A stretch of DNA of 64,000 nucleotides. It comes from Xylanibacter rarus (lineage in GTDB: Bacteria; Bacteroidota; Bacteroidia; Bacteroidales; Bacteroidaceae). Made by a program: the position numbers and the translations under genes. The notes beneath the pieces are model-generated. The model saw only the letters and a list, made by a program, of their open reading frames with translations. It had not been told where the DNA came from and ran no database searches. Location: contig NZ_LFQU01000021.1 of the NCBI RefSeq assembly GCF_001275135.1, positions 1 through 64,000 on the forward strand, written 5' to 3'. Positions 652-54,481 of this stretch are shown piece by piece. Numbering within the stretch: the first letter of the stretch is position 1; every line of letters starts with the position of its first letter.

Positions 652-2370
652 TCATCGCCGCATTCCATAACTGTATGCGACGTCTTGTGCCTGATAATCT
701 TTCATTTCATTTAATTTTTCATTAGCCACCTGGACATTCATATCAAGTGAAGAGTCATGGTCATAGGGAAAACTGTGGCTGACTGTTAGACCGGCATTAC
801 ATGTAGTTCCGAAATCAAGAGAATCGTTTTCCCTGTTATAGGCAAAATACAACGTGTCTCCGCTTGGCAATTCAATGGCCGGCACCCTTTGTTTAACCAT
901 CTTGGCGAACTCTTCATTTACCATATCTTTTGCGACTTCTTTTATATCGTCGCTTGCTTGTCTGGTACCATACCTTTTTATGTGATTACGAATTTCCTGC
1001 TCGGAGTATTTCAACATAACTTCATATGTGCCACCCACACTGTTGTTATATACAACGGCAAAATCCTTGTCTTCTACCAGCAGATCATCACCCTTGTTCC
1101 TGATAGGAGAGGAGAAGGTATATTGCTCATTGATGCCGTTTCCGTCATAGTACTCTTTTGCAGTTCGGAGCAATCCCTCATAATTGCCCTTGTCACGGAA
1201 TTCGTCCAGTCGGGAAGTGTCATCGGATGATTGCAGGTAGGCAACGGAAGAATAGAAAATCTTTGCGTTGGATACTGGTTGTTCAACTTTCACGCCTTGC
1301 TTGTTATCCTGCTGTTCCTTTTTCTCCTTTTCCAATTCTTCTGCAATCTTTTCCACTTTTTGTGTGATCATAGAGGTCGCCTTTTTTACATCGAATAACG
1401 TAGTCTTTATGAACTGCGGAGATTCCTTTAACTCATATAGCCATGATTTAAGATAAGCACAGCTATCTTCCTTCAAGACTTTGCTCATTCCGTATCTTTG
1501 GGCAACCAACGCGCTGCCCAGTTCTGCAACAAGTTCTTCACGGGCGTATTCCTTTGAGCCGAAAGCCGTCGGCTTGATACGGTCAAGCTGTCCCTCGATT
1601 CCTGTACTATGGGTCATTTCGTGAAAAACTGTTCCGTAGAAAGATTCACCATCTTTGAACTGTTTCTTTTCCGGGACGACAATCTCATTTTTCGAAATGG
1701 AGAAGTATGCATGATCCTGATATTGTGTCTTGATCGGACAAATCCAAAGATTGTCCCTAATCATCACATCAATAGGTTCAAATGTCATTTTGTCGCCTTC
1801 TTCTGTAATTCCTAAAGAGTTCTCCTCTTCCAATTTTGCCCAAAGCTCAGGACGGGCTTCTTGAAGATTAGTCTGGGCCACATTGAATACCCGAAAGACT
1901 TGCACTCTTGGATATACATTATACATTTTCTTTTCATCCTCGGAAAGGTTCTTATAATCGTCGTATTTGATTTTTTCCTTTGTATCCTTATGAATGCAAG
2001 TGAAAGTGGTAAGCATCACAGGGAATGACCGTTCTCCTTTATTCACGGAAACTCTTGGCTGATTATCGCTGCTTTTCTGTTTCCCATTAGGCTGATTGAG
2101 ACGTTGTATGCCATCAAAAGTGCAGAATCGAGGTATTGTATAACCATTTTTCTCACAGTGCATAAGGAGCATAAGCGCATTCATACCATTGTACTCACGT
2201 CCTGACAGATTCTTAGGCCATCTTAGACTACCTTTTGTGAACCAGGGTTTGCTCCAATCTTTGCTGATGGTTTCAATACGTTCAATCATCATCTCGGCAA
2301 AAAGATCAAGAGCCTTATCTTCACTGGATTTTTCATCACTTTTATAATTCTTATATCCTGCCATATCCAT
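652..2370 (-). CDS. ArdC-like zincin metallopeptidase / polyvalent protein
   Basis: A 572-residue protein. Residues about 20-170 match the ArdC N-terminal ssDNA-binding domain (WPKNLSGREYNGMNALML region). Residues about 200-320 are a zincin-like peptidase with HEMTH as the HExxH zinc site and a downstream EELVAELGSAL that supplies the third ligand. The C-terminal third is an uncharacterised extension. ArdC proteins of conjugative elements enter recipients with the DNA and counter restriction (established for ArdC; inferred here). The start overlaps the stop of the upstream OB-fold gene (TGATG), suggesting translational coupling. The C-terminus GMRR matches the tails of three other operon products. 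There is no signal peptide. Confidence 0.8.
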   Translation of the reverse strand: MDMAGYKNYKSDEKSSEDKALDLFAEMMIERIETISKDWSKPWFTKGSLRWPKNLSGREYNGMNALMLLMHCEKNGYTIPRFCTFDGIQRLNQPNGKQKSSDNQPRVSVNKGERSFPVMLTTFTCIHKDTKEKIKYDDYKNLSEDEKKMYNVYPRVQVFRVFNVAQTNLQEARPELWAKLEEENSLGITEEGDKMTFEPIDVMIRDNLWICPIKTQYQDHAYFSISKNEIVVPEKKQFKDGESFYGTVFHEMTHSTGIEGQLDRIKPTAFGSKEYAREELVAELGSALVAQRYGMSKVLKEDSCAYLKSWLYELKESPQFIKTTLFDVKKATSMITQKVEKIAEELEKEKKEQQDNKQGVKVEQPVSNAKIFYSSVAYLQSSDDTSRLDEFRDKGNYEGLLRTAKEYYDGNGINEQYTFSSPIRNKGDDLLVEDKDFAVVYNNSVGGTYEVMLKYSEQEIRNHIKRYGTRQASDDIKEVAKDMVNEEFAKMVKQRVPAIELPSGDTLYFAYNRENDSLDFGTTCNAGLTVSHSFPYDHDSSLDMNVQVANEKLNEMKDYQAQDVAYSYGMRR

Positions 2371-2981
2371 CAGTTGTTAGGATTGTACTGCGGTTTCACA
2401 TACTCCGACATCTCTGTTATCTTGCAACTGACATTCAGTTTGTCGTTATATACAGACAGGTCCAAATCCCCTTTGACTTCAATGGCAGTCTGTGGCTGAA
2501 GCCACCCTTCGCGCTTATCGGTAAAGCTGAAGAACCTCACCCACAAATATTCAAAACTATCATTGACCTTTTCTGTAGTAAAGCCAGAAAACTGGATATA
2601 GCTTTTCCCTTTCTTGTCTTGTCGTTCATCGATACTCTTGCCTGTTTTACCTCGAAAAAGCATAATGCCTTTAATCGAATCTTCGCCTGAAACTCCGGTA
2701 AAATTGGCCGATGAAGCAGAGAGATTGAAATAGATATTCTCACCACGCTTCTTGAATGTCAGCATACCTGATATTTCAACTCTTTTCCCAACGACAAAAC
2801 TTGCCAAATCTCTTTCATCTCCATTACTGCTGACCGAAATATCAATCAATTTCCCATTGCCGCTTTTTGCAGGAATCGTTACGCTCATGGCAAATGCCAT
2901 ATAAGACTCTCCATTCTTGTTTGTGCGCATTTCTGCTGCTCTGCTGACTGTTCCGCAGATTTTCACATCACATTTAATCAT
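2370..2981 (-). CDS. Tandem OB-fold, ssDNA-binding-like protein
   Basis: A 203-residue protein with two similar halves, each resembling an OB-fold of the SSB/PriB kind: residues about 1-100 (KICGTVSRAAEMRTNKNGES, then a VGKRVEISGML strand) and about 105-195 (GKSIDERQDKKGKSYIQFSG, then VKGDLDLSVYNDKLN). It probably binds single-stranded DNA during transfer or replication of the element, which is inferred from fold-like patterns and position. The start at 2981 has no clear Shine-Dalgarno site. It lies directly upstream of, and overlaps by one base, the ArdC-like gene. A canonical acidic SSB tail is absent; it ends PQYNPNN. Confidence 0.6.
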   Translation of the reverse strand: MIKCDVKICGTVSRAAEMRTNKNGESYMAFAMSVTIPAKSGNGKLIDISVSSNGDERDLASFVVGKRVEISGMLTFKKRGENIYFNLSASSANFTGVSGEDSIKGIMLFRGKTGKSIDERQDKKGKSYIQFSGFTTEKVNDSFEYLWVRFFSFTDKREGWLQPQTAIEVKGDLDLSVYNDKLNVSCKITEMSEYVKPQYNPNN

Positions 2982-3058
2982 ATTGTTGTAGTTTGAATTT
3001 AACCAAAGACCATTTGACCATTTTCTGTCTGTTAAACTGAACTACCGACAACACAAAC

Positions 3059-3232
3059 TTAATCCGGTCCACGAATTCTTATAAAGACTATGCCTAAACC
3101 AAGAATTATTTGTATACCTATAATCACGAGTGTAGCCACAGATCCAAATAATCGATAGCATAGATAGGTATACAGCACAGTCCAGGATAGTCCGACAATC
3201 AATACTCCTATGTAAATCATCACGCGCTTCAT
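3059..3232 (-). CDS. 57-residue two-helix membrane protein
   Basis: A short frame read directly from the sequence, starting MKRVMIYIGVLIVGLSW and ending RIRGPD. It has two hydrophobic segments (residues about 4-24 and 30-50) separated by a short Tyr/Cys/Arg/Phe/Gly loop. Its ATG overlaps the TAA of the upstream M23 frame (TAATG), the coupling style seen elsewhere in this operon, which supports it as real. A longer frame in another phase over the same bases has no convincing features. Function is unknown; in an operon of peptidoglycan hydrolases an inner-membrane accessory, holin-like or immunity role is possible but unsupported. Confidence 0.6.
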   Translation of the reverse strand: MKRVMIYIGVLIVGLSWTVLYTYLCYRLFGSVATLVIIGIQIILGLGIVFIRIRGPD

Positions 3233-4227
3233 TATCTTCTGATTTGCTCATTCCTATTCTGTTGTTCAGAAAGACATTGCTCAAAATTTTCCGATACCTG
3301 ATATGAGAGTACGATGGAATTGACCATTCCGGCAATTCTCATACGTTTACTCTCGTCAGACAGGTTGGGATTGTTGAGAATTACTGAGAGCCGACTCAAT
3401 TCATTTGAGGACAACTCCCTCATGAATTGCACATTACCATTGTCGGCTTTCAAAACAGCCTTGTTGTCCTCATTGACAACGATATCACAGGTCTTCATAT
3501 TGGGTAATAGAGATGTCAAATCAATCGTACGTCGGTTTGCCATGTCCGAAACAGCAGCCAGCTGACTTTTTTCGTCTTTATTGTCAATAATGACAGCCAG
3601 TGCCATAAGCGAGGAGAATGCAGTGACGACCATATCAATGATAGGATCATTGCTGTCAGACAAGCCGACACCACTGTCTTCTGATGAAAGAAGCTTTTTC
3701 ATCCATTCTTCAGGACTCTGAACTTTGGAATCACGCTGTGCATGTGCAGGATCAGCTTTATATTTTGCTAATAGATCATTGCCATCATGCAGTGCCTTTG
3801 TTTCGATGTTGCCTTTTTCTGCAATTTCAGCAAGATAAATTGCTGGATCGACATCCCTTTTCGAGCCATCAGCAGTAATTTGTGTCACAGCAAAATGCAG
3901 GTGTTCGCCGGTCGTTCGTGTACCCGTATTTCCGGAAACACCAAGTTTCTGTCCAGCTTGAACAGTGTCGCCCAACTTGACATCAATAACCGACAAATGC
4001 ATATATACATTCTGAATCTTGCTCCCGTCTTCCCGTTCATATTCTACCGTTATACTTTTACCCCCAGGCGCATTGATGTTTTGATTGACTGCTACGACCT
4101 TACCATTGTTTTCTGTAGCTAAAACTTCGTCTTTATTGCAACGTATATCAATACCTTTATGCATAACTTGCCCAGATCCTACAGTAGTAGGGTCAGCACG
4201 CATACCGAAAGGAGAAGTAACAAACAT
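3232..4227 (-). CDS. M23 peptidase half of a bifunctional peptidoglycan hydrolase
   Basis: A 331-residue frame. The first 125 residues are an M23 LytM-type endopeptidase with HKGID (first zinc His and Asp), GDTVQAGQKLGVSGNTG, and GEHLHFAV (HxH), so the catalytic set is complete. The ATG at 4227 is internal to homology: codons upstream read FFPVKRDEF in the same phase, a normal M23 lead-in. The glucosaminidase frame (4242-4766) runs into this one across a T run with a -1 shift. Together they would make 511 residues. The C-terminal 200 residues are uncharacterised, with one hydrophobic segment (DMVVTAFSSLMALAVII), and end in QIRR. No signal peptide is present. Confidence 0.75.
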   Translation of the reverse strand: MFVTSPFGMRADPTTVGSGQVMHKGIDIRCNKDEVLATENNGKVVAVNQNINAPGGKSITVEYEREDGSKIQNVYMHLSVIDVKLGDTVQAGQKLGVSGNTGTRTTGEHLHFAVTQITADGSKRDVDPAIYLAEIAEKGNIETKALHDGNDLLAKYKADPAHAQRDSKVQSPEEWMKKLLSSEDSGVGLSDSNDPIIDMVVTAFSSLMALAVIIDNKDEKSQLAAVSDMANRRTIDLTSLLPNMKTCDIVVNEDNKAVLKADNGNVQFMRELSSNELSRLSVILNNPNLSDESKRMRIAGMVNSIVLSYQVSENFEQCLSEQQNRNEQIRR

Positions 4228-4241
4228 GAACTCATCCCTCT

Positions 4242-4766
4242 TTACAGGAAAAAATAGTGTTTTTGTTCATGCTCAGACACTTTCTCTTTCTTTTCGGAAT
4301 GCAATTCTTCCATAACCATCTGGTCATACTTTTGCAGGCCATTAATCTCAATGATCTTCTGAAGGCTGTCAGCATAATTACTACCACTTGCATAGCCGGC
4401 ATCAGCTAAGCCTTCAGTCCATCCTTTATAGCCATCAGGCGATAGTTTGAAACAGTTGGAATAACGCTTATTCTCTACAAGAAACATCGAATGATGCTCA
4501 TAGGACTCAGTAACACTGTCATAGCTGCAAAACTTTTCATTTGCTTTATCATCAGTATATAAGCCATATCGTCCTCCTTGTTCTATCCACTTGGAAGTGG
4601 CCTTTATGCCAAAATGGTTGTTTTCATTAAGAGCTAACTGGCTCTGACCATTACTGCTTTCAAATATTCCCTGCGCCAGAGTAACGGATGCCGGAATGCC
4701 ATATTTGCGCATCTGCTCCATGGCAATTTCGGCATATTGTTCTGCATACTGTATATTCTTGTTCAT
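4242..4766 (-). CDS. Glucosaminidase half of a bifunctional peptidoglycan hydrolase
   Basis: A 174-residue frame of the FlgJ/LytG-type N-acetylglucosaminidase (lysozyme-like) family: ASVTLAQGIFESSNGQSQLA holds the catalytic Glu, followed by NNHFGIKA and the usual CSYDSVTESYEHH segment. It would cleave glycan strands, while the M23 part cuts peptide cross-links. The protein starts MNKNIQYAEQ, without a signal peptide, which is unusual for a wall hydrolase. The frame ends at TAA 4242-4244, just after a T6 run where a -1 shift enters the M23 frame. It lies 12 bases after the ArdC-like frame. Confidence 0.78.
   Translation of the reverse strand: MNKNIQYAEQYAEIAMEQMRKYGIPASVTLAQGIFESSNGQSQLALNENNHFGIKATSKWIEQGGRYGLYTDDKANEKFCSYDSVTESYEHHSMFLVENKRYSNCFKLSPDGYKGWTEGLADAGYASGSNYADSLQKIIEINGLQKYDQMVMEELHSEKKEKVSEHEQKHYFFL
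4249..4254 (-). other. Frameshift site in a T6 run (U UUU UUC)
   Basis: On the coding strand the codons are TAT TTT TTC CTG TAA. One more T, or a -1 ribosomal shift, gives TAT TTT TTT CCT GTA AAG and joins the glucosaminidase and M23 frames without loss. The in-phase heptamer T TTT TTC fits the X XXY YYZ slippery form. A one-base deletion or sequencing undercall explains it equally well. Confidence 0.6.
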
Positions 4767-4778
4767 ATAGTTGTTGAT

Positions 4779-5291
4779 TTATCTGCGCAGACCATGGGGC
4801 TTCTCGTTTTCCTGTGCAGAGGTAATTTCATCTGTCATCTTATGCTTTTCTTCCAGTTTGTCACAAAGGGCAACACGTTCCCCAGCACGAATCAGTTTGG
4901 GAAGGTGACTGTCAAGAGAATGCAATGGAAATTCGACTACTTTTTCAAATACACTGTCAGAATCTTTTTGAATAGGCAAACCCAATATATTTGCAGTCTT
5001 CTCAGCATCCTGATTGTAAATTCTATATTTCTCACCAGTACGAAACAGAAGAACGGCATCAGGATGTTTGTCCTTGATTTTATCCCATTGTTTTGCCGTT
5101 TCTGATTTCTCTGTTACCTGTTCAGGCTTATTGCTAGGTTCAAGATTGTCCTGAATATTTTTTTGGACAGCTTCATCAGTTTCCTTTTCGGAAGGAATCT
5201 GTTCCTGTGACTGTCCCTTTTTCAGGACATCTGCATAAAGAGTTGCGGCAAGATGTTGTTTGAACGTATCCCTGTTCTCCGCCACCCACAT
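4779..5291 (-). CDS. C-terminal part of a frameshifted ArdC-like protein
   Basis: A 170-residue frame whose ATG (MWVAENRDTF) is internal to homology. Upstream in the same phase the codons read VTPQQWQQ, giving the QWQ-x-MW start of the C-terminal extension common in Bacteroidales ArdC-like proteins. Residues about 20-60 are a charged linker. A second globular part follows (KHPDAVLLFRTGEKYRIYNQ). It belongs to the frame ending at 5222, with a one-base offset near 5317-5319; the joint protein is 768 residues. The tail is HGLRR, one of four shared hydrophobic-Arg-Arg ends. Confidence 0.7.
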   Translation of the reverse strand: MWVAENRDTFKQHLAATLYADVLKKGQSQEQIPSEKETDEAVQKNIQDNLEPSNKPEQVTEKSETAKQWDKIKDKHPDAVLLFRTGEKYRIYNQDAEKTANILGLPIQKDSDSVFEKVVEFPLHSLDSHLPKLIRAGERVALCDKLEEKHKMTDEITSAQENEKPHGLRR

Positions 5292-7084
5292 CTGCTGCCA
5301 CTGCTGCGGTGTGACACCCGTGGTTGCAGCTTTTGGCTGTCTATAGTTGCTGCGCAGAGTATGGCTCCATTCTTGGTTTTGAATACAGATACACGCTGTA
5401 TGCGGTTAAGGTCAATGCTCTCGTCTGCTGTATGGAAAAGATCCACTTTCAGGTCAGGTTTGCTTTCAGCAAGTGTATAATATTTCTTTGCAAGTTCGTC
5501 ACGTACTTTATCAATATTATCCAATGATTGCCTCAAAGTAGTGAAAAAACGGTTAAGGTCTTCCTTGTCTGGATAGACACTGTAGCCATCCTTACCCTCT
5601 GGTTTGATGAAGAGTGCCCAGCGATTATTGTCATCTTGCACCATCTGAACCTGCTCAAATGACATTTCTTCAGCTTTCTTTACGGCAGGGGCTGCATTTA
5701 TTGTTGAGAGTGTTTCCAATGCCCAGTTCTTTAGTCTCGCGACTTCAATCTGTTTTTCTGCGAAATATCTATCATCTGGCCTAAATCCCAAGGCACCGTC
5801 CGGATTGTAGAATCTTACTTCTCTCATTCCATTCTTCTCCAACGCTGTCTGAATACGTTGTTTATTCATGCCCTTTATTTCATTGTTCACTTCCAGCGAT
5901 GCACCTGCAGGGAGTATTACATCTGCAATACCCTTCTCTTTGTCAATGACAAGAACGATGGTCTTATTATCCTTGTCCGGATATTTCTTGATTTCGTCAG
6001 CGACAATATAGTGCTTCGGCATCTGTCCCTTCATTTGTTCGGTCTGCCTATGGTTGCGCAAAGTGGCATACTCAATCTTCTCTCCGCGTTCTGCTTTACG
6101 TATTACTTCAAGAGCGTTGTTGACATCACTTTCGATAGCATCTATCAGATTGGGATTCTCTTTCAGTTCCCGATTCCAATAATCTGTCAGTTCAAGACTG
6201 GCATCAGATAATCTGGCAGGCAAACCAAACTCCAGCATCTTTATCCCTGAAGCGATTTCGGTAACCAGTTTTTCTTGCTTGACAGCATCCTCAGTAGGAG
6301 GAATACCATTTTTCATAATCATACCTTCTCTGGCAAGACGCTGCTGATGACCGGTTGCAGACACAATTTGCCGTAGAGCCTCCTGTACATAGTCTGTGTA
6401 ATGTATGAAGTCTTTCTGACGAGGAATGTATATGGCATCCTTTTGTGTGTCATAATGAGCTATTCCACTGGCATCAGTGCGGATAGGGGACAGATTCTGA
6501 GTGATGGATTGCAGAAAATTATTGAATCGTGGCCTTAACTCTCTGAGTTCCTTTTCGCCAAATCCCTGTTCAATACTATTGCCGTATTTGCCTAAGGCCT
6601 CTTCATATTCTTTCTTGTCAACAAAGGGCAACAGAGTCTGATCAATATTGAACAATGTCCGCACTTCTGCATTGTGTATACCCTTATATTGAGCTTTTTC
6701 TTCCGGAGCCAGTCGTACATAGTCAGATCTTGATATTATTTCATCGGGATTATTCCGGTTTACATACTTATTCCAATTATAGAATAGGAACGGTACGCCC
6801 TTTTCGTTTTCCCTCACTGATGCACCCCTGGCTTTGGCTTCGCTATACAACGTGAATAAATTACTTTTGCAGCCATTCTTGTCTGAGTGCAACGCCATGA
6901 ACAAGGCATTGAATGGACTCACTGATACTCCTGTCGGATAGAAGCATGGATAACCTTTTCCTGAAACGTTGAGCCAGTGACCACCAGCTTCAGCTGCTCC
7001 ACTCAATGCATTGGAAAGCAATTCAATCTGTTTCTCTGCTGCGTTTATTTCAAACTTTGTCTTCTCTTTCATATTTCCTGTCAT
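5222..7084 (-). CDS. ArdC-like polyvalent protein lacking the HExxH motif
   Basis: A 620-residue frame. Residues about 1-165 are an ArdC N-terminal domain. Residues about 190-300 align with the zincin domain of ArdC proteins, but where HExxH should stand it reads EALRQIVSATGHQQRL, so the metal site is lost. Residues about 355-560 hold the DUF3945-like segments typical of Bacteroidales elements (MGMNKQRIQTALEKNG type). The last 31 residues (from VSHRSSG) are out-of-frame translation after a missing base near 5317-5319. The start at 7084 overlaps the preceding gene by four bases (ATGA). It is probably a non-catalytic, DNA-binding partner of the intact ArdC-like protein. Confidence 0.7.
   Translation of the reverse strand: MTGNMKEKTKFEINAAEKQIELLSNALSGAAEAGGHWLNVSGKGYPCFYPTGVSVSPFNALFMALHSDKNGCKSNLFTLYSEAKARGASVRENEKGVPFLFYNWNKYVNRNNPDEIISRSDYVRLAPEEKAQYKGIHNAEVRTLFNIDQTLLPFVDKKEYEEALGKYGNSIEQGFGEKELRELRPRFNNFLQSITQNLSPIRTDASGIAHYDTQKDAIYIPRQKDFIHYTDYVQEALRQIVSATGHQQRLAREGMIMKNGIPPTEDAVKQEKLVTEIASGIKMLEFGLPARLSDASLELTDYWNRELKENPNLIDAIESDVNNALEVIRKAERGEKIEYATLRNHRQTEQMKGQMPKHYIVADEIKKYPDKDNKTIVLVIDKEKGIADVILPAGASLEVNNEIKGMNKQRIQTALEKNGMREVRFYNPDGALGFRPDDRYFAEKQIEVARLKNWALETLSTINAAPAVKKAEEMSFEQVQMVQDDNNRWALFIKPEGKDGYSVYPDKEDLNRFFTTLRQSLDNIDKVRDELAKKYYTLAESKPDLKVDLFHTADESIDLNRIQRVSVFKTKNGAILCAATIDSQKLQPRVSHRSSGSRCGWRRTGIRSNNILPQLFMQMS
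5317..5319 (-). other. Frameshift at a GGG in the second ArdC-like gene
   Basis: The coding strand reads CAA CCA CGG GTG TCA. With one extra G the phase gives Q-P-R-G-V-T-P-Q-Q-W, restoring the expected join to the downstream frame. The site does not fit a slippery heptamer, so a real deletion or sequence error is more likely than programmed shifting. Confidence 0.6.
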
Positions 7085-8886
7085 TGTATTCCTCTGGTCC
7101 TTATGATAGTTTCTCTATCATTGTTCTCATAGTTCATTTCTGCCAATTGCTGAGTCTGGTCGCACTTTGCTAGAATTGCATTAGCCAGAGTGTTAAGAGG
7201 CAGTGCGCCTGCATTGTATGCGGCAATCACTTTTTCAGGCAATTGGATTGTACATGGGATTCTATCTATTACAGCAATGAGATTACCTCCTTGCAATATC
7301 GGGTTGGAAATTCTAGGATTAAGAGCTTCTTCTTGATAGATGCGATAACGGATATTCTTCTTGCTCTTGCTGTTATTTGCATTATTCTGTTGCCAGTCCA
7401 GGACTTCATGTCCGGCTTTGTTCAATAAATTTGCACCGCCGAATCCTATCATCAGCATTTTGAGAATAGGATTCTTTATAAAAGCCCCGGCAACTATACT
7501 GGCAATAGGTATAAGATTATCGCCAATATTCAATGATTTTGTTTTACCTGTGAATATTCCCAACAGAATATCGGGCAACATGGAAAATACATATCCCAGA
7601 TTTTTAGTAACTGCACCAAAGTCACCAAGTCCCAATGCTGACACAAAACCTTCCCAGCCGTTTTCATTCGTTTGCTGAACCTCTCTCTCTTCATGATATT
7701 GTACTACGTTGCTATCCTGTTGTTCAAATACAGTTGATTCCGCAGGTGCAGAAGACTCATCAGTAGGGGACTTTGTACCTGAAGATTTGAAGACATCGTA
7801 TCTTTTCCTCTCTTTCTCAGCGGTCCTCTGTTCAAGTCCTTTGAGATAGGCTTCCTCATATCCCGGTGCTATGACTTTGGGGACATCTTTATATCTTTCC
7901 TTTTGATTCTGAACAGATTGTGTGAATTTTGAAAACATGTTTGGAGAATTTTTTGTCATCCATTCTGAAAAGTCATAAGTAGAAATGTCTATCTTCTGAG
8001 AAAGACGCTCATTGGTAGCGATGATATATTCGTTTTGTTCTTTGCTTATTTTATCTGCCTGTTTACGAAAATCGACAAAGACATTAATATCACTTCCGAA
8101 AACGCCTTTACTGATACAATTCTCTACCGATAAAGGCTTATCCTTTTCATTTGGCGACGCAATTGCATTGATAGCAAGGTCAAATCCAACAAATCGTGCA
8201 AAAGCTCCCCAGCTGCCAATACCGCCAAATGAAATGGCATCCATGCCCGCTCCGATTGCCCATCCTGCACCTTTTTCAGCTTTTGATGGTTTATATGCTG
8301 CTTCACCCCGTTGCTCTATTTCTGCGGCAAGAGGCGATTGGTTAAGGGTAGAAGCCAATCCCAATAAACTGTTTTGTGCAGCTTTTCGTATGATGTACTC
8401 CGCAGAAGATTTCGGCATACTGTCTTTTACCAGTCTGTCTATCATCATCTGTTCAATGCGATACTGTATGTATGCGTATGCAAGGTCTCCTCCCAAATTT
8501 GAAGAAAGTTCATCGTACCGTTCTCTGCCAACTTCTGAAACCACTGTAGAACGCCATTCATTGGCCAGCATTGCAAGATCTTCCTGAAAGTCTTCATTAC
8601 CAGTAACCTTATCATTGCACATTGCAATATAATCTTCAGTAGTCTTTGAGTTCCATTCACCAGTCAGTTTCAACGTCTGATATGGATCAAGCATCGGATT
8701 CTGTGCAGATGCCATTGTACTGAGAATACCGGCAGGACTTCTTGAATACTCTGCCATCTCTTCGAGTTGCTTTTTCTGAAGATATTCTTCCGTGTCACGC
8801 ATAACAGGTGCGATATGCAGGTCGAAGTAATCATCCAGCACCCTTTCTATTTCGGCAAAACGTTCCTTATTCTTTATCTCGTTCAT
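7081..8886 (-). CDS. 601-residue membrane-associated protein of the transfer operon
   Basis: I do not recognise this family. The first 200 residues are predicted helical and charged. Residues about 215-245 are a glycine- and alanine-rich stretch (GAGWAIGAGMDAISFGG). Residues about 285-420 are hydrophilic and rich in Lys/Glu, with a Ser/Thr/Pro/Gln-rich linker. Residues about 440-500 hold hydrophobic segments (LGYVFSMLPDILLGIF, LIPIASIVAGAFI, ILKMLMIGFGGANLL). The tail is hydrophilic and ends RTRGIQ. No signal peptide. It is translationally coupled to the downstream ArdC-like gene and lies 3 bases after the M23-like gene. A structural or membrane role in transfer is only a guess. Confidence 0.6.
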   Translation of the reverse strand: MNEIKNKERFAEIERVLDDYFDLHIAPVMRDTEEYLQKKQLEEMAEYSRSPAGILSTMASAQNPMLDPYQTLKLTGEWNSKTTEDYIAMCNDKVTGNEDFQEDLAMLANEWRSTVVSEVGRERYDELSSNLGGDLAYAYIQYRIEQMMIDRLVKDSMPKSSAEYIIRKAAQNSLLGLASTLNQSPLAAEIEQRGEAAYKPSKAEKGAGWAIGAGMDAISFGGIGSWGAFARFVGFDLAINAIASPNEKDKPLSVENCISKGVFGSDINVFVDFRKQADKISKEQNEYIIATNERLSQKIDISTYDFSEWMTKNSPNMFSKFTQSVQNQKERYKDVPKVIAPGYEEAYLKGLEQRTAEKERKRYDVFKSSGTKSPTDESSAPAESTVFEQQDSNVVQYHEEREVQQTNENGWEGFVSALGLGDFGAVTKNLGYVFSMLPDILLGIFTGKTKSLNIGDNLIPIASIVAGAFIKNPILKMLMIGFGGANLLNKAGHEVLDWQQNNANNSKSKKNIRYRIYQEEALNPRISNPILQGGNLIAVIDRIPCTIQLPEKVIAAYNAGALPLNTLANAILAKCDQTQQLAEMNYENNDRETIIRTRGIQ

Positions 8887-8889
8887 ATA

Positions 8890-9162
8890 CTAATAGTTCT
8901 GTTGTTTCAACAGTTGTTCTTTGGTTTGTTCTATGGCATTGTGGTATATTTCCATTTGTTTCGGGAAGAACTCTTCCAGCCATTTGTCTTTTTCTATTCT
9001 GTCTTGGATGAATCTGATTGCGCTGTCCTTGTCAATTTCTACAGACATTTCACCTTCCTCATGGTTGTTGAACAATGCTTTGGTCCACCAACGAACTCCA
9101 GCACGGTCCGGATATACAGAAACTATTCTCGGAATATCAAAACTCTGTACATCAATATCCAA
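8890..9162 (-). CDS. C-terminal part of the frameshifted M23-like protein
   Basis: About 90 residues from a TTG at 9162, but the same phase is open upstream and reads LQAEAIVDSGIVDPLAEL straight from an A9 run. It therefore looks like the natural C-terminus of the M23-like protein encoded upstream, not a separate gene. It contains IPRIVSVYPDRAGVRWWTKA and a long charged helix, and ends KQQNY. The joint product would be 378 residues. It has no independent start signal. Confidence 0.55.
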   Translation of the reverse strand: MDIDVQSFDIPRIVSVYPDRAGVRWWTKALFNNHEEGEMSVEIDKDSAIRFIQDRIEKDKWLEEFFPKQMEIYHNAIEQTKEQLLKQQNY

Positions 9163-9194
9163 TTCGGCTAAAGGGTCAACGATACCGCTATCAA

Positions 9195-10025
9195 CTATTG
9201 CTTCGGCCTGAAGTTTTTTTTTACTTCTTCGCTCATAGAGGATATATATACGTTATGTCTGAGAGCGAGATAGTTCAAGAAGTCGGCAATCAACAGATTC
9301 TGAACCTTATTTGCTAACGGCAATGCCCTGCTGCCAATTCCTAAAGGATTTGCCATGCTTGGCATAGTTTCATAGAAATAATTCTTTATGGCTCCTACCG
9401 AGAACACATTTCTTAGAGACTGTACAGTATATTCCGGTACGATGTAGTCTCCATGGAAAAGATCTTTCATATACACAGGAAGAAAACGAAGCATAAGTTC
9501 TTCTATTTCTTCCTTGTCCTTATCATATTTTGTCTTCAGCCCACTATCAAAATTACCCATACCGGATAATTCTTTGTCTCTGGAGAATTTTGTGGCCTGA
9601 ATATTACCATACAGCATCGTCAGAAACTCTATCGGATTCAGTTCTTCACCATTGAAGCTCACTGCCAAATGCAAACTGTTTCCGCTGACAGCAACAGGTT
9701 GCCCTGCTTTCACGGTTTGTCCAAACTGGGCGAATACGTTTGCCAGGCCACTATAGGATACTTCATACTTCCCATATCGAACAGTCAGGTAAATTCCCTG
9801 TTCTCTATCATTCCCAACTCCGGAAATGATACCGCTTGCCAGTGCAGCCAGCGGATGATGACTGATTCCGAAGTCTATGCCATGATTGAAGAACGTATTC
9901 CCGGTTGCAGTATCTTTCTGTTCGCCATAGCCCATAAGGACCTTTATATCTTTGCCTTCGTCTTCCTCGAAGGGCATACAGTAGCCACTTGGCGATTGCA
10001 AGATCATTTCTTCTGTATATTTCAT
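9195..10025 (-). CDS. M23-like protein with degenerate catalytic site
   Basis: A 276-residue frame. Residues about 30-140 resemble an M23 domain: FNHGIDFG gives the first His and Asp, GQTVKAGQPVAVSGN is the typical strand, but the HxH motif reads SLHLAV, so its first His is replaced by Ser. Zinc could still bind, while catalysis is doubtful. Residues about 150-276 are mostly helical. No signal peptide. The end VKKNFRPKQ is probably an artefact of a one-base offset at the A9 run; a -1 shift extends the protein to the stop at 8890. It lies 18 bases downstream of the glycine-rich gene. Confidence 0.65.
   Translation of the reverse strand: MKYTEEMILQSPSGYCMPFEEDEGKDIKVLMGYGEQKDTATGNTFFNHGIDFGISHHPLAALASGIISGVGNDREQGIYLTVRYGKYEVSYSGLANVFAQFGQTVKAGQPVAVSGNSLHLAVSFNGEELNPIEFLTMLYGNIQATKFSRDKELSGMGNFDSGLKTKYDKDKEEIEELMLRFLPVYMKDLFHGDYIVPEYTVQSLRNVFSVGAIKNYFYETMPSMANPLGIGSRALPLANKVQNLLIADFLNYLALRHNVYISSMSEEVKKNFRPKQ
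9214..9222 (-). other. Frameshift site in an A9 run (A AAA AAC)
   Basis: The coding strand reads GTA AAA AAA AAC TTC AGG. The in-phase heptamer A AAA AAC is a classical -1 slippery sequence. A -1 shift, or a tenth A added by transcriptional slippage, moves into the phase CTT CAG GCC GAA, which stays open for about 100 codons. Alternatively one A was lost in evolution or in sequencing. Confidence 0.6.
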
Positions 10026-10043
10026 ATCATAATTTATTAAATC

Positions 10044-10694
10044 CTATCGTCTGATTCCACTGCTGTAGCCTTGCTGTTCCTCTTGTGATTGTGAATGCCT
10101 CGCAGTTTCGGTTATTGTAATTCCCTGTTGCTGTTTGGAGTTATTACCTATGAGCATCATGGTCAATAGGGCTCCCGCTATTTTGCCAAGCCATCCGAAC
10201 CTTCCGAAGACAAGGAATGCTCCGGCAATCAATCCTACTATGCTCAGCCCTGACACTTTGCCTTTGCCAAGATTGCTGAAAAAGTTCTCGAACATGTTTC
10301 CAGCATTGCCTCCACCAATTCCTCCAATAAAACTGGAAATTCCGTCGAGAGAAGACGATAAGTTTTCAGCTGACTGGCTGACACCATCAATGGCCCTTTC
10401 CGCTTTGTCCGTAAGGTTGCTTACTTTGGCTCCGGCTGAATCCAAAGTGTTACCTATCGCATCACTGGTCTTTTCGCCAACTATTGCATCACTGACAATT
10501 CGTACTACGCTTTTGTCCGTAGTCAGTTTCTCCCAACCTGCATATCCGGCTGCTGCACCAACCGTAGCAGTTTTCATGGCACTTCCTGCGCCCCTTAATG
10601 TTTGAGACGGATGCAGGACTGCGCCACCGATGCTTTTACCTGTTGCCGTAGCAGCCTTTCCGCCGTATTTCAAAAAAGAACTCCAAAATCCCAT
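10044..10694 (-). CDS. Glycine-rich membrane protein ending in GIRR
   Basis: A 216-residue protein of unknown family. Residues about 1-60 are Gly/Ala/Lys-rich, residues 60-120 helical and charged, and residues 120-150 very glycine-rich (SFIGGIGGGNAGN). Residues about 150-185 form one or two hydrophobic segments (LSIVGLIAGAFLVFGRFGWLG and KIAGALLTMMLIG). The tail is Gln/Ser-rich and ends SGIRR, one of four shared tails. It is a plausible pore-like or membrane-inserting protein, but nothing proves this. It is 19 bases downstream of the transfer-type gene and in the same operon. Confidence 0.6.
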   Translation of the reverse strand: MGFWSSFLKYGGKAATATGKSIGGAVLHPSQTLRGAGSAMKTATVGAAAGYAGWEKLTTDKSVVRIVSDAIVGEKTSDAIGNTLDSAGAKVSNLTDKAERAIDGVSQSAENLSSSLDGISSFIGGIGGGNAGNMFENFFSNLGKGKVSGLSIVGLIAGAFLVFGRFGWLGKIAGALLTMMLIGNNSKQQQGITITETARHSQSQEEQQGYSSGIRR

Positions 10695-10713: not shown

Positions 10714-11328
10714 TCAATATTTTCCAGCTTTCCCACTTCGTTTCCAGCGTCTCATCGCTGATTCAACTATCTTCGCTTTGTTGGCTTTAGGACGTTCCAG
10801 TTCACTGATTTCAGCCCAGATGTCACCAAGTGAGGTATATTTAACAGCCATACTTAGCCTTTGCAGTTTCTTATTCATATATTGCAACTTAGGACGAATG
10901 CCGAACACTATCTCCATGCGTTCTTTCTCGGTCATCTTATTGTCAGACAGGCACGTCGTCCGTATATCATTTACTATCTCTACTGAGTTGTAGATTAGCT
11001 CTCTGTATATCTTGTTCCTGTTTGTGGATAATGCAACAGCCAATGCGTTGTCGGGACTCCTTGCAAGTTGACGGGTAAACTCTCCCATGTTTTCAGTCAG
11101 GTTGGTTATCTCATGGTAGAAACCGTAAATTTGGGCTGCATAGCTAACGATTGAACGAAAAGAATCAAGGTAGTCGTTGAACTCTCTCTGCAAGTCTGTC
11201 ACAGCCTCGACCTCTTCCTTTGTCCATATATAGTTTCCGCAAGAGTGTGTCCGCCTTTCCAGCGGTGTCCACATTCCGAACAAGTGATAGTTCCGCCTTT
11301 TGTGCGGTAGGCATGATGCTTGAAGCAA
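10714..11328 (-). CDS. Transfer-operon helical protein, N-terminus probably replaced
   Basis: A 204-residue frame. From about residue 36 (TKEEVEAVTDLQREFNDYLD) it resembles helical proteins found in transfer operons of Bacteroidales conjugative elements; I recall the family but not a name. The first 35 residues (Cys/His/Arg-rich) are translated from DNA that in another phase encodes the pcfJ fragment, so the native start was probably lost when two elements were joined near 11220. It is the first gene of the leftward operon that runs to 652. Hydrophobicity is low and no signal peptide is seen. Confidence 0.55.
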   Translation of the reverse strand: MLQASCLPHKRRNYHLFGMWTPLERRTHSCGNYIWTKEEVEAVTDLQREFNDYLDSFRSIVSYAAQIYGFYHEITNLTENMGEFTRQLARSPDNALAVALSTNRNKIYRELIYNSVEIVNDIRTTCLSDNKMTEKERMEIVFGIRPKLQYMNKKLQRLSMAVKYTSLGDIWAEISELERPKANKAKIVESAMRRWKRSGKAGKY

Positions 11329-11423
11329 TGTTCAAAAGCGTATGCTTTCTGCTTGTCTGTCAGTTCGGGCAGTCCGCTTGACAAACGGACTACCTCTTTC
11401 TGTATGCGTGTTCTCGGTTTCAT
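11199..11423 (-). pseudogene. pcfJ: N-terminal fragment of a PcfJ-like gene
   Basis: From the ATG at 11423 the frame starts MKPRTRIQKEVVRLSSGLPE and contains the ITCSECGHRWKGGHTLAETI segment of the PcfJ-like N-terminal zinc-binding region, as I recall the family. Intact PcfJ-like proteins are about 400 residues; only 74 remain. Homology stops near 11220 and the frame runs into the transfer-type gene in another phase, ending KRSRL. It follows pcfK by one base, the usual order in CTnDOT-like elements. Confidence 0.6.
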
Positions 11424-11424
11424 A

Positions 11425-11838
11425 TCAAAAATCAAATAATGAGGGTTGGACTTGTGTTTCTTTTTTCGCTGTCGGCTTGTTGCGGTTCTGTAGCTTTTGG
11501 AGTTCCATCTGCTGATATTGGGCAACCGCCTTTCTTCTTGCTTCCTGCTTTTCCTCTTCTGTCAGTTCCACCACATGGTTTACAACTACTTGACATTGTA
11601 TAGGCTTGCCTACTTCAATCTCGTTTTCATCGTAATAGTGAACGGCTTGTCCGTAAATCTCTCCGTCTGAAAAGCCGTTGCAACCGCTTTTCTGCACATA
11701 GTTCAGAATGTATGTGACACAATCGTCTATGTTCTTGGCTGGGTTGCGGTAGTTTTTGGCGAATAGTTCATCTTCCGCTGCTCTCTACTCCAAAAACATC
11801 TGTATGGTTCGTTTGAAATGGTCTGTTCCTTTCATCAT
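11425..11838 (-). pseudogene. pcfK: PcfK-like gene interrupted by an amber codon
   Basis: Reading from ATG 11838 gives a typical PcfK-like start (GTDHFKRTIQMFLE), then TAG at 11785-11787, then RAAEDELFAKNYRNPAKNI and on through the intact remainder to QPSLFDF. The CAG to TAG change is the only defect. A shorter product could start at an internal Met after the stop (near 11697, MQKSGCNGF), but it would lack the conserved N-terminal half. PcfK-like proteins accompany PcfJ in conjugative elements; their role is unclear. Confidence 0.7.
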
Positions 11839-15224: not shown

Positions 15225-16628
15225 ATGAGTATAAAACAAAAAATAGATGAAGCTCAAGCACTGCTTAATGCTGGTGGAAATATCATTAAAACCCGTGATG
15301 ACCATGAGTTGGTTTTTATTGATAAAGATGGAACTATTTTGAATACAAGTGGTTTTGACTGGGGACTTAATAATACGGAAACTGTTACAAATTCTGTATT
15401 TCGTAATCGAATTGAGCCCTGGCTAACTTCATTGTTTCAATCTGAACATTTGTCACTGCTTTGCGGCTCAGGCATAACAAATGCTATAAGTTTCTTAGCA
15501 GGATCAAATGGCGGTACTACAATGGGAGCAACTACATTTACCAAGTATGAAGATGAAATTAAAAGCGCCGCGGAAGTCTCTGCAAAAGCATGTGGGCGTG
15601 GAAGTGGTAATATTGAAGACCAAATACGAACAGCAAATGATTTACTTCGTGGATTGAAAATTCTAAAGAAAGACGGCGATGCTAAAGAATTAGAAACAGA
15701 ACTTAATGTAATAATTTCAGAGTTTGCGAAGTCTATATTAAAGTCTGAAAACGGAATAGCAACTGCGAATGAAGAAAAACGTGAAAATGCATATTCAGTA
15801 CTAGTCAATTTCCTTCTTAGTTTTGCTAGTCGCACAGGGAATAGGGAGAGGTTGAACATTTTCACAACTAACTATGATCGTCTGATTGAAATTGGTGCTG
15901 AATTAGCAGGTATTCATTTAATGGATAGATTTGTAGGCACAATGATGCCTATTTTCAGGTCTTCAAGATTAAACTTGGATATTCATTACAATCCGCCTGG
16001 AATTAGAGGAGAACCTCGCTATTTGGAAGGCGTTGCACGTTTGACAAAACTTCATGGATCTGTAGATTGGATACAGAATGGTGGTGCAATACGTCGTATA
16101 GGGCTTCCGTTTGGAGCAGATGACATAGAGGCCTATTTAAAAGCACCTGGACTATATGGAGCAAATGCCTTAAAACTGATGATTTACCCCAATTCTGCAA
16201 AAGATCGTGAAACCGCTGAATATCCATACGTTGAATTGTTCCGTGATTTTGCTGCTTCTATTTGTAGACCGAATAGCACTTTGGTCACTTATGGTTATGG
16301 ATTTGGAGATGAGCACATAAATAGAGTAATTCATGATATGCTTACTATACCATCAACCCATCTAGTTGTTATTTCGTTCAACGATCCAATAGGGCGTATT
16401 CTGCGGTTCTATTACGAAGTAGCACATTATGCCCAAATATCAATTTTGATTGGTAATAATTTGGGAGACATTACTAATTTGGCAAATGATTATTTACCTA
16501 AATCTGCTATTGATCGGACTACTATTAGAATGGCTGAACTATTACAGCACCGTATTGGAGCAGCTCCTGTTGTATCTTCAATAACACCACTTACCTCATC
16601 TGCAGCAAATACATCAAAAACATCTTAA
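15225..16628 (+). CDS. SIR2-domain defence protein (Sir2 of Sir2-HerA)
   Basis: A 467-residue protein with a SIR2-like NADase fold over residues about 60-400. Visible motifs are SLLCGSGITNAISFLAG (Gly-rich NAD loop), IFTTNYDRLIE (TTNYD motif), KLHGSVDWIQNG (LHGSxDW) and YGYGFGDEHINR. Such defence SIR2 domains hydrolyse NAD+ or act as nucleases once a phage is sensed (established for Sir2-HerA). The stop is 12 bases before herA, so they form one operon. The frame is intact, unlike many genes in this element. Start chosen at the only ATG with full homology. Codon use is AT-rich like its neighbours. Confidence 0.88.
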   Translation: MSIKQKIDEAQALLNAGGNIIKTRDDHELVFIDKDGTILNTSGFDWGLNNTETVTNSVFRNRIEPWLTSLFQSEHLSLLCGSGITNAISFLAGSNGGTTMGATTFTKYEDEIKSAAEVSAKACGRGSGNIEDQIRTANDLLRGLKILKKDGDAKELETELNVIISEFAKSILKSENGIATANEEKRENAYSVLVNFLLSFASRTGNRERLNIFTTNYDRLIEIGAELAGIHLMDRFVGTMMPIFRSSRLNLDIHYNPPGIRGEPRYLEGVARLTKLHGSVDWIQNGGAIRRIGLPFGADDIEAYLKAPGLYGANALKLMIYPNSAKDRETAEYPYVELFRDFAASICRPNSTLVTYGYGFGDEHINRVIHDMLTIPSTHLVVISFNDPIGRILRFYYEVAHYAQISILIGNNLGDITNLANDYLPKSAIDRTTIRMAELLQHRIGAAPVVSSITPLTSSAANTSKTS

Positions 16629-16640
16629 ACATTATAGCTT

Positions 16641-18686
16641 ATGATTACAACACCAATTGAATATCTTGCTTCATTACGTATAGGTACAGTGGAATATATT
16701 TCTCCAGATAGGATAGAGGTGCAATTGGATATAGAGTCTCCTGATAGTATAGCCTTAAATACAGGAACACCACGAAACTTTCCGCGTATAAATGGTTATG
16801 TTATGATACCTATAGACCTTGGTTTTGTTGTTGGTCAAGTATCATGGATTACTATTCAACGGTCTCCTTATCCTAAACGTAGTGGTTTTCAAGATTTTGG
16901 ATTGATAGATTTACCTTTCCCATTAAGGAAAATGGAGCTTCAACCAGTAGGAACTCTTGTCGCTAAAAATGATAGTTATCAATTTAAGCGAGGGCTTGAA
17001 ACATTCCCATCTGTTGGAGATATTGTCATATTACCAACCGAAGAGCAGTTACGTTCTATTATTGAATCAGGAGATAATAGACGCGTTTATATAGGTAATA
17101 GTCCACTAATTAGCAATGCTAAAGTAATGATTGATCCAGACCGTTTGTTTGGGCGCCATCTTGCAGTATTGGGTAATACCGGAAGTGGAAAATCTTGTTC
17201 TGTGGCAGGATTGATACGCTGGTCACTTGAAAGTGCCAAAGAGCAACTTATTGATAAAACAAAATCAATAAATTGTCGTTTTATTATTTTAGATCCAAAT
17301 GGAGAATATAGTAAAGCTTTTTCAGATAAGACGGATGCAAAAGTCTATACCGTGAATTTAGAAACTGGAGATGGGAAAAAGCAACTAGAAGTTCCATTAT
17401 GGTTATGGAACACAGATGAATGGTGTGGATTTACTAAGGCATCGCCCAAAACTCATAGAACTACAATTGTTCATGCGCTAAAAACGGTGAGAAGTGGTAT
17501 TAATGTGGAATGTCTATCTAAAGAAAAAGAACTTTCCAATTATATTAAAGTCATTTTACAGGCTATTAATATTAGTGTTAAAGAAGGAGCACCATTTGTT
17601 AAAAGACCTGCATTCGGCTTTCATAATTCTTTAGTAAAGTGGAGTAAGGGATTTAAGGCAGAAGAAGAATTTTCAGATGAATTAAAAGAATCATTAATCA
17701 ACTTAAATTCCAAAATATTAAAATTCTGTACTAATAGGTCAGGAGATGGCTATATTGACTACACTTATACAAGAGAAGAAATCAATGAATTGATTACTTT
17801 AATGGAATGTGTCTTTTCCAAAGCAGGAGGGAAAGAAGAGGACCTTCTTCCTATTGATGAGGACAGCCCTATACCATTTACGGGAGAAAACTTTGTTCGT
17901 TCTATTGAAGCTAATGCAGAGATACTAAATACAACAGATTATATAGTGACATTAATGCCTCGCATCAAGGCATTATTGACAGATGTGCGCGTAAGAAAAG
18001 TTATTGATAATGAAAGCCTTAGTTTGAGTAAGTGGCTAGAAGATTATATAGGTTCTGATAATGAAGAGTCACTAACAATAATTGATCTATCGTTACTTCC
18101 GTCAGAGGTAACAGGAATTATTACAGCTGTTATTGCTCGCATGATTTTTGAAGCACAGCAGAGATATCTCAAATTGAATAAGCAATGCCTTCCAACCGTA
18201 TTGGTTATGGAAGAAGCACATTATTTTGTAAAACGATATAATGATGATGCTGAGAATACTGGACCAACTACTCAATGTTGTAAAGTATTTGAGAAGATTG
18301 CACGGGAGGGGAGAAAATTTGGATTAGGATTGGTTTTATCATCTCAAAGACCATCCGAATTATCTCCTACTGTGTTGTCGCAATGTAATTCTTTTTTATT
18401 ACATCGTATATCCAATGACAGAGATCAGGAATTGGTTAGCCGTTTGTTACCTGATAATATGAGGGGAATACTTCGTGAAATGCCATCATTACCTTCTCAA
18501 TATGCAATATTATTGGGATGGGCATCCGAGTTACCTGTCATGGTTAAAATGAGAACATTACCCAAAAATCAATGTCCTCAGTCTGATGACCCTGATTTCT
18601 GGAATGTTTGGGTTGGATCTGAAAATCGTAGAATAGACTGGAATGCAATTGCTGACGAATGGCAGAGTAAGAAAAAAGAGATGTAG
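16641..18686 (+). CDS. HerA-like ATPase (HerA of Sir2-HerA)
   Basis: A 681-residue protein. The N-terminal 100 residues look like the HAS barrel. The Walker A is LGNTGSGKSCSVAGL (about residue 173), the Walker B is VLVMEEAHYFV (about 523), and the conserved AREGRKFGLGLVLSSQRPSE segment follows. HerA proteins form hexameric DNA translocases; with SIR2 they build a large complex that gives anti-phage defence (established for the pair). The length is normal and the frame intact. It is the second gene of a two-gene operon closed by a strong terminator. Confidence 0.88.
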   Translation: MITTPIEYLASLRIGTVEYISPDRIEVQLDIESPDSIALNTGTPRNFPRINGYVMIPIDLGFVVGQVSWITIQRSPYPKRSGFQDFGLIDLPFPLRKMELQPVGTLVAKNDSYQFKRGLETFPSVGDIVILPTEEQLRSIIESGDNRRVYIGNSPLISNAKVMIDPDRLFGRHLAVLGNTGSGKSCSVAGLIRWSLESAKEQLIDKTKSINCRFIILDPNGEYSKAFSDKTDAKVYTVNLETGDGKKQLEVPLWLWNTDEWCGFTKASPKTHRTTIVHALKTVRSGINVECLSKEKELSNYIKVILQAINISVKEGAPFVKRPAFGFHNSLVKWSKGFKAEEEFSDELKESLINLNSKILKFCTNRSGDGYIDYTYTREEINELITLMECVFSKAGGKEEDLLPIDEDSPIPFTGENFVRSIEANAEILNTTDYIVTLMPRIKALLTDVRVRKVIDNESLSLSKWLEDYIGSDNEESLTIIDLSLLPSEVTGIITAVIARMIFEAQQRYLKLNKQCLPTVLVMEEAHYFVKRYNDDAENTGPTTQCCKVFEKIAREGRKFGLGLVLSSQRPSELSPTVLSQCNSFLLHRISNDRDQELVSRLLPDNMRGILREMPSLPSQYAILLGWASELPVMVKMRTLPKNQCPQSDDPDFWNVWVGSENRRIDWNAIADEWQSKKKEM

Positions 18687-34179: not shown

Positions 34180-34354
34180 AGTTTGTATATTTAGTGGTTT
34201 GGTCACTCCTAAATTACAAACTTCAGGGCTGACACGCAAAAGGCGCCCCTTTTTTACTGCTTATCAGACACACTTTTTGAGACAGTATCACGTTCTTCTG
34301 GTAGCAGCGGCTTATAACTTCAAAAGAACCATGAAAGCTCTTTGTTGCATGCAT

Positions 34355-52449: not shown

Positions 52450-52617
52450 ATCTTAGCTTATTATTTTTATGCAATGCATCAACATATTATCAGCCTCTCT
52501 TCATTAAGTTGCAATCCAATTTGTCATGGCATTGTTTCCTTACATGCTTAAAACTTTAAATTTTGTAGCGCGACAAGTATATGTCATAACGCAAAAGGCG
52601 CAGAGAGAGGGACGTAA

Positions 52618-53415: not shown

Positions 53416-53566
53416 ATATTATTTATTTAAAGGACATTACGAAATATCTGTCATACAAGTATTTTCTTATGGCTGGTTACAATTCATGAAGACAGCAACT
53501 AAACACTGTCACATCTTCAATGACCTCATACTTACGTTGGCAATTAAGGACATACATATATATTGT

Positions 53567-54391: not shown

Positions 54392-54481
54392 ATTTAAATT
54401 CTTATATTCATTCAGTATGTACATAACTTTATTGAAGAAATACATTAAGATTTCTTCTATCATAAAATCAGCAACTTACAA

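Follow-up and report, generated by a model that had tools for sequence, protein, structure and literature searches.

The gene array and its tails

The first 20 kb of the window, as we call the whole stretch of 64,000 nucleotides analysed here (Xylanibacter rarus, assembly GCF_001275135.1, contig NZ_LFQU01000021.1, positions 1 to 64,000), hold part of a conjugative element in which several otherwise unrelated proteins, encoded one after another on the minus strand, end in a hydrophobic residue and two arginines. Read from position 10694 down to 652, the array begins with a 216-residue glycine-rich membrane protein (family F1; 10044..10694, ending SSGIRR), followed by an M23 protein, the second of the element (F2; 9195..10025), a 90-residue protein with TTG as its first start (8890..9162), which lies at the place of a 93-residue gene of relatives (F3), and a 601-residue protein (F4; 7081..8886, ending RTRGIQ) for which a library scan gave no Pfam or NCBIfam match. 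Next come an ArdC-type open reading frame (ORF; 5222..7084), an ORF with a MutS_I domain (F5; 4779..5291, ending PHGLRR), a glucosaminidase ORF (4242..4766), an M23 ORF (F6; 3232..4227, ending NEQIRR), an SSB-like protein (F8; 2370..2981) and a 572-residue ArdC-like protein (F9; 652..2370, ending SYGMRR). The two M23 proteins, the SSB-like protein and the ArdC, MutS and glucosaminidase frames were named from Pfam matches to their translations, the glycine-rich and 90-residue proteins from translation. The F2, F8 and 90-residue proteins lack the tail and serve as untagged controls.

Four of these ORFs are pieces of two genes, as alignment with the references L031 (B. finegoldii, NZ_OY725888.1), L034 and L076 makes evident. 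Positions 5222-7084 and 4779-5291 hold the first and C-terminal parts of an ArdC-MutS gene that is a single 749-residue ORF in L031, and 4242-4766 and 3232-4227 hold the two parts of a glucosaminidase-M23 gene that is a single 518-residue ORF there; in each pair the upstream part has no tail of its own. The initial annotation took the ORF at 4779 for a second ArdC-like protein, which it is not; its label for the M23 frame at 3232 likewise needs correction, that frame being one part of a broken gene. Both the 652-2370 and the 5222-7084 frames contain the ArdcN and MPTase-PolyVal domains above the Pfam cut-offs, which places them among the polyvalent proteins.

The four tails that had been pointed out, GMRR, QIRR, GLRR and GIRR, are borne out by translation, as is the observation that they are spelled with different codons. 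Since the last-position codons differ among the four window genes and vary within families, a shared DNA end can be rejected as their source. The tails are real and not a product of chance. The initial annotation had asked how often such ends occur among chromosomal proteins, and they are far rarer there: a C-terminal [ILM]RR is found in none of 827 chromosomal ORFs (0/324 in G005 and 0/503 in a further set) and in 1/489 other ORFs of the loci described below, a set that is not dereplicated. These background counts also dispose of a general bias towards basic ends. A C-terminal profile of 14 columns, set at the chromosomal 1% level, passes five of the 65 window ORFs, namely the four already noted and the 601-residue protein, and the same five pass when the window sequences are removed from training (scores 8.7-20.7; chromosomal maximum 5.9).

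Relatives of the array

The 601-residue protein has relatives in six plasmid records and in 20 of 151 genomes of the family (12 strong and eight weak, partial matches). An alignment of 17 of its relatives was used to search further, and the best 80 of 129 genome-collection matches were kept together with two from a viral collection; with three plasmids this gives 85 loci, which were read alongside the window. Most are labelled Bacteroidales, and a few other labels (e.g. Roseburia, Clostridiales) occur on metagenome bins. ORFs were taken from a simple longest-ORF script and not from a trained gene finder.

In L031 and the long elements the operon runs DUF4099 (U1), 74 residues (U2), 522 residues (U3), toprim (U4), PH (U5), U6, glycine-rich (F1), M23 (F2), 93 residues (F3), 601 residues (F4), ArdC-MutS (F5), glucosaminidase-M23 (F6), SSB (F8) and ArdC (F9), some copies being without some of the genes. 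Eight of these families are tagged (ArdC, ArdC-MutS, glucosaminidase-M23, glycine-rich membrane, 601-residue, toprim, DUF4099 and 522-residue) and five neighbours are untagged (F2, F3, F8, U2 and U5). Family sets were made from one best match per locus above a bit-score floor, with dereplication at 80% identity; the window F5 entry was omitted because its gene is broken. U6, some of whose members end in a single basic residue (AALVR, ASLTR), F7 and the MobV relaxases stand outside the profile statistics.

Form and conservation of the tail

The tail takes a somewhat different form in each family. F1 most often ends in GGMRR or RGMKR (34/61), F5 in TSLRR, RGIHR, SSMRR, RGFHR or PTMRR (37/76), F9 in GGMRR or SAFRR (33/71), and F6 in ENLKR, NLQRK or ENLRR (41/112, a set that includes other M23 proteins). 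U4 (71 proteins) ends in forms of FHR, FRR, YHR, MRR or YHRSV, U1 in FSMHK or AALHK (24/49), U3 in MRMGR, IRRGY or MRRGR (43/65) and F4 in TRGIQ or PRGIQ (56/87). Among dereplicated members, a hydrophobic-[RKH]-[RK] end is present in 78/115 proteins of U1, U4, F1, F5, F6 and F9 (9/15, 16/18, 16/24, 15/20, 10/20 and 12/18, respectively); the exact pattern is found in 0/15 of U3 and 0/36 of F4. The background is 9/324 and 8/503 chromosomal ORFs, 6/489 other ORFs of the loci and none of the 93 members of untagged families. Upstream, at positions -6 to -15, acidic residues are frequent in F5, F9 and U4 (E+D 0.35-0.38, against 0.13) and glutamine in F1 and F6 (0.20 and 0.30, against 0.03), and U1 is basic (K+R 0.35). 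Inspection by eye gave no clear pattern of covariation in tail subtype (e.g. the HRSR forms) between families.

It had been proposed that, in homologues, the last four residues should be conserved beyond the preceding 20. This is clearly so in F1 (mean entropy 1.40 against 2.85), U4 (1.54/2.83), F5 (1.67/2.88), F9 (1.59/2.64) and F4 (1.73/2.44), and slightly so, though beyond any control, in U3 (1.59/2.20); F6 and U1 do not conform. The corresponding values for the untagged families are 2.07/2.61 in F8, 2.50/2.21 in F2, 2.00/2.26 in F3, 0.87/1.13 in U5 and 1.33/1.50 in U2.

A comparison across families was made by leaving one out: a C-anchored profile of 14 columns, built from seven of the tagged families, was used to score the remaining one, each family in turn, with the 503 further chromosomal ORFs held out. 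A profile trained on all tagged families was also used, and the leave-one-family-out figures are the fair ones. The area under the receiver operating characteristic curve (AUC) is 0.997 for U4 and F1, 0.987 for F9, 0.978 for F6, 0.977 for U3, 0.971 for F5, 0.959 for U1 and 0.928 for F4; the untagged families give 0.828 (F3), 0.624 (U2), 0.604 (U5), 0.582 (F8) and 0.491 (F2). Scores above every held-out ORF are reached by 83 of the 166 tagged proteins and by none of the 93 untagged ones, the successes being concentrated in F9 (17/18), F1 (21/24), F5 (16/20) and U4 (13/18), with fewer in U3 (5/15), F6 (5/20) and F4 (6/36) and none in U1 (0/15). A profile hit outside the eight families, a 123-residue ORF ending EEERSYRFHR (L084:5936-6307; score 21.7), is predicted to be an additional tagged cargo protein.

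These results bear on the simplest explanation, that the tails reflect nothing but common descent within each family, or a compositional leaning towards basic ends. The loci are related and each tail is in part inherited within its family, and the lack of extra conservation at the end of U1 and F6 also counts for descent. Against this, no Pfam domain is common to the tagged families apart from ArdcN and MPTase-PolyVal in F5 and F9, the end is retained in five families whose linker diverges, neighbouring genes are untagged, the arginine codons of the last position vary within families and the tail is nearly absent from chromosomal ORFs. We therefore hold descent or composition alone to be very improbable. 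The idea of a tag common to unrelated, co-encoded proteins, as first put forward for the window, is thus supported, and the C-termini of the homologues are not random.

Tagged genes beside the transfer apparatus

Four long stretches of elements of this kind (class A), three from G149 and one from G080, hold the operon in a wider context. At the chromosomal 1% level the profile picks 7/122, 8/144, 8/92 and 8/99 of their ORFs. By BLAST, all of these belong to the tagged families with one kind of exception: the last two stretches each hold a 203-residue ORF with the end VPGIRK, which, judged by its start, we take to be a recombinase and whose score of 5.4 falls short of the highest in G005, 5.8. 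Also present are relatives of TraE, TraG, TraK, TraM or TraN of L032, in a subset that differs from stretch to stretch, and a coupling protein. That of G080 (L135) matches T4SS-DNA_transf, TraG-D_C and YWFCY and has relatives in the other three stretches. All these type IV secretion system (T4SS) and coupling-protein genes score 3.1 or less, below the threshold of 4.0, and so are untagged. In the four stretches, then, it is mainly the cargo-like genes that carry the tag. Transfer genes adjoin the tagged set in G080 and the three G149 stretches and not in the window copy, in whose genome identity to the coupling protein is at most 39%.

A link between the tag and the transfer machine is supported indirectly by these observations, because untagged T4SS and coupling genes adjoin the tagged set and because a related class of elements, described below, has a different tail. 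It is less clear that the link must involve export. The tails might instead bind a single scaffold and so gather the proteins at the transfer site or in a complex within the donor. The statistics of the tag fit such docking as well as they fit delivery; several tagged proteins act on peptidoglycan or are apparently membrane-bound, and one of the untagged operon proteins (SSB, PH, the second M23 or the 93-residue protein) could be the hub. On the other side, the tagged ArdC and toprim families are thought, in the portion of Iyer et al. available to us, to act on incoming DNA in the recipient (PMC5512222), a role that is still compatible with docking. We regard docking without export as a serious rival, if an unlikely one.

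One further observation concerns the surroundings of a class A operon. In L280-L283 (G149:C1:1455088-1518998), type VI secretion TssD genes lie approximately 22, 45 and 72 kb past the end of the tagged operon, and at least one class A element may be an integrative and conjugative element that bears a type VI secretion system.

Other classes of element

A second class, class B, was found through relatives of ArdC and read in 23 loci. It is related to class A, and its DUF4099, MutS-domain, ArdC and toprim proteins tend towards a different end, G/S-phi-K-[LMI], where phi is a hydrophobic residue; examples are TGMKL, QGLKL, TGLKL and GGLKM in L238 and AGIKI, QGLKI, QGLKIR and GGIKM in L249. The pattern [GSA]-phi-K-[LMIFR] is present in 21 of 31 dereplicated class B proteins (DUF4099 4/6, MutS 11/11, ArdC 1/6, toprim 5/8), compared with 1/324 and 2/503 chromosomal ORFs and 0/209 other ORFs. 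With homologous families left out of the two models, 26/31 class B proteins score higher under the class B model and 125/166 class A proteins under the class A model, F4 being undecided (18/36). A shared receptor would be expected to produce such a result, a change of tail between classes that affects several families at once. It should be noted that the families of the two classes are homologous and that the difference is in part explicable by inheritance of the operon as a whole, a point in favour of descent.

The existence of two tails also bears on turnover. Short C-terminal motifs are degrons in bacteria, and a tag at the extreme C-terminus could be read by a protease of the host or the element, so that early-acting proteins would be short-lived. 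A single host family harbours both class A and class B elements with their distinct tails, which is unexpected for one conserved host protease, and in the four long stretches the profile finds the tag almost solely on cargo-like genes. A degron is less likely than docking, and we consider it improbable.

Class D comprises four plasmids (L253, L255, L256 and L259) and appears to have a common C-terminus of greater length. The ArdC and DUF4116 proteins of L253 align with 51% identity over the last 92 residues (2e-23) and ArdC and a methylase align over 110 C-terminal residues (3e-15), both with composition correction off; the DUF4116 and 578-residue proteins are full-length relatives of each other, and a resemblance of the toprim protein is weak (best 0.012). 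The last 30 residues in L255, L256 and L259 look similar by eye. As a separate observation, the L253 ArdC, DUF4116, 578-residue and methylase proteins have a common C-terminal region of approximately 90 residues that ends like GW.LT.SKQ....ESSASI. A search of 201 genomes with one class D protein, which had no positive control, gave no match.

The tag is not a universal feature of ArdC, a possibility that was rejected because the ArdC proteins of L161, L162, L219 and L251 end differently. In a group with one ArdC beside a coupling protein (L243-L248, L257 and L258), no shared tag was seen among the ORFs of more than 100 residues in L243, L244, L245 and L247 or among chosen genes of L257 and L258; for L246 and L248 the ArdC end alone was viewed. 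A phage collection holds 57 records with relatives of ArdC (six at 60-80% identity, of which those listed are unannotated faecal contigs, and the rest below 60%); they were not used as a control.

Comparison with known secretion signals

C-terminal signals with positively charged or hydrophobic residues are frequent among T4SS substrates, according to the accessible text of two accounts (PMC10025392; PMC11288057), and a tag formed by the final residues of several unrelated proteins from one element is of this kind. There is a likeness to the VirF-type arginine motif of Agrobacterium VirB/VirD4 substrates, which, as far as the consulted part of that account goes, is likewise short, C-terminal, arginine-containing and found on varied cargo of one machine (PMC10025392). 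Here, in contrast, a hydrophobic and two basic residues follow an E/Q-rich linker, and the basic stretch over the last 20 or so residues that marks the VirF type is not seen: the last 20 residues have a median net charge of -2.0 in F9, -1.0 in U4, -0.5 in F5, 0 in U3, F4 and F6, +1.0 in F1 and +2.0 in U1, with 0 for chromosomal ORFs.

Legionella Dot/Icm signals include a hydrophobic end or an E-block, in the part of the source at hand (PMC7251119), and U4, F5 and F9 similarly have a Glu-rich stretch and then, close to the C-terminus, a hydrophobic residue. EExxE itself, looked for within the last 20 residues, occurs in 16/56 proteins of these three families (5/18, 4/20 and 7/18) and 2/110 of the other five, with 2/324 and 5/503 in chromosomal ORFs, and it is the terminal basic pair that is most constant here. 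The XVIPCD of X-T4SS cargo is also a C-terminal module with a Gln-rich tail, common to the cargo of a bacterial T4SS, as described in an excerpt of PMC10025392; at approximately 120 residues it differs from the class A and B tags of about 4-14 residues, and the shared C-terminal domain of class D is closer to it in form. No XVIPCD or BID domain is among the Pfam matches of the window and L031 cargo, where it is not confirmed that Pfam holds both models.

In content, the tagged set resembles the polyvalent proteins described for T4SS-bearing elements by Iyer et al. (2017), with ArdcN and MPTase-PolyVal domains, toprim primases and methylase-helicases, and it differs in that the sections of that account available to us describe no shared C-terminal tag (PMC5512222). 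A C-terminal signal as such is thus of a known kind. A short tag common to several cargo families, with a form that depends on the class of element, was not found described in the literature searched, from which most subscription papers and all bioRxiv preprints were absent.

A proposed role in delivery

The tail is probably a short C-terminal recognition signal, made up of a linker rich in E or Q (roughly -6 to -15), frequently a glycine at -4, a hydrophobic residue at -3 and two basic residues, with up to two extra residues in some members. It would mark the cargo of a Bacteroidales conjugative element for that element's own T4SS. The receptor would most likely be the VirD4-type coupling protein, or else an adaptor encoded in the operon, and the anti-restriction, primase-like, peptidoglycan-hydrolase and membrane proteins would be handled, and probably delivered, together with the DNA. 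As a precedent, transfer in the course of conjugation is stated for pSa ArdC and for two toprim primases, TraC1 and SogL, in the part of the review we could consult (PMC5512222).

Several observations weigh against this proposal. Some concern the tail itself: the last four residues show no extra conservation in F6 (2.15/2.21) and U1 (1.96/2.03), and the untagged F8, F3, U5 and U2 likewise show a small drop in entropy at the end. The RGIQ end of the 601-residue protein, regarded in the initial annotation as related to the other tails, is indeed conserved in its family, but the F4 AUC falls to 0.554 on the last four residues alone, and so the resemblance lies solely in the upstream part. Relatives of F5, F6 and F9 in L033 (Segatella hominis) have no tail, F5 has other ends in L035 and L056, and the only tail-like ends among 11 MobV relaxases are RRMRR and RGIKL. 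The separation of the classes is imperfect as well, with class B ArdC fitting its own class weakly (AUC 0.775; ends such as AKLSI, GLGI and SLSIV) and the class B DUF4099 of G056 scoring 13.2 on the class A profile. Others concern export: some conjugative plasmids and elements carry an untagged ArdC (L219; G009), and R388 ArdC acts when expressed in the recipient, export being not required though not ruled out, in the portion of that study available (PMC7213743). F6 has a median N-terminal hydrophobicity of 1.45 and a maximum of 2.25, overlapping the TraN control (2.12), so that the absence of a signal peptide is weakly tested, and no match to the class A coupling protein in the genome of the window exceeds 39% identity.

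Taking these together, we consider the tag itself to be well supported, and infer on good grounds, from sequence comparison, that it may act as a delivery signal: on balance it is probably an element-specific C-terminal signal that is read by the transfer apparatus, most plausibly for co-delivery with the DNA. We put forward more tentatively, as something that may or may not hold, a wider scheme in which Bacteroidales conjugative elements would rely on an interchangeable address code at the C-terminus (phi-R-R for class A, phi-K-phi for class B and a C-terminal domain for class D), with a class-specific T4SS receptor delivering anti-restriction, priming and cell-wall-acting proteins with the DNA.

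Decay of the window copy and its surroundings

The copy of the element in the window is a decayed remnant, as judged from its two frame-broken tagged genes, the lack of a close coupling protein and the lack, in the window, of relatives of the DUF4099, 74-residue, 522-residue, toprim and PH proteins, whose genes precede the operon in relatives. The tails are for this reason best studied in the relatives. Upstream of the glycine-rich protein, an untagged minus-strand ORF (10714..11328) encodes a distant U6-like transfer-region protein (approximately 20-23% identity by alignment), and its start lies inside sequence at about 11200 that we take to be PcfJ-like and that passes into it. The joining of this PcfK/PcfJ-like sequence (11199-11697) to the U6-like frame suggests a deletion junction near 11200.

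Beside the remnant, adjoining SIR2 and HerA genes (15225-18686; PADLOC 2.7e-167 and 5.6e-248, respectively) form a defence pair of the SIR2-HerA type. They are followed by a XerD-like tyrosine recombinase of 336 residues (18921-19931), whose frame ends just past the apparent HxxR region and which may be truncated. Farther along the window, and judged from translation, two neighbouring ORFs at 33148-34239 resemble a single transposase broken across frames, and three tandem, similar-looking proteins of 265-298 residues with a common GLPGLI motif are encoded at 51634-54463.

Significance

If the proposal is correct, a T4SS can recognise its cargo by a handful of terminal residues, which vary with the class of element, and protein co-transfer in Bacteroidales conjugation becomes testable with small reporter fusions. 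Were the tail to direct delivery, one could tell directly from sequence which proteins a group of gut conjugative elements carries as cargo, including uncharacterised families such as the 601-residue and 522-residue proteins.

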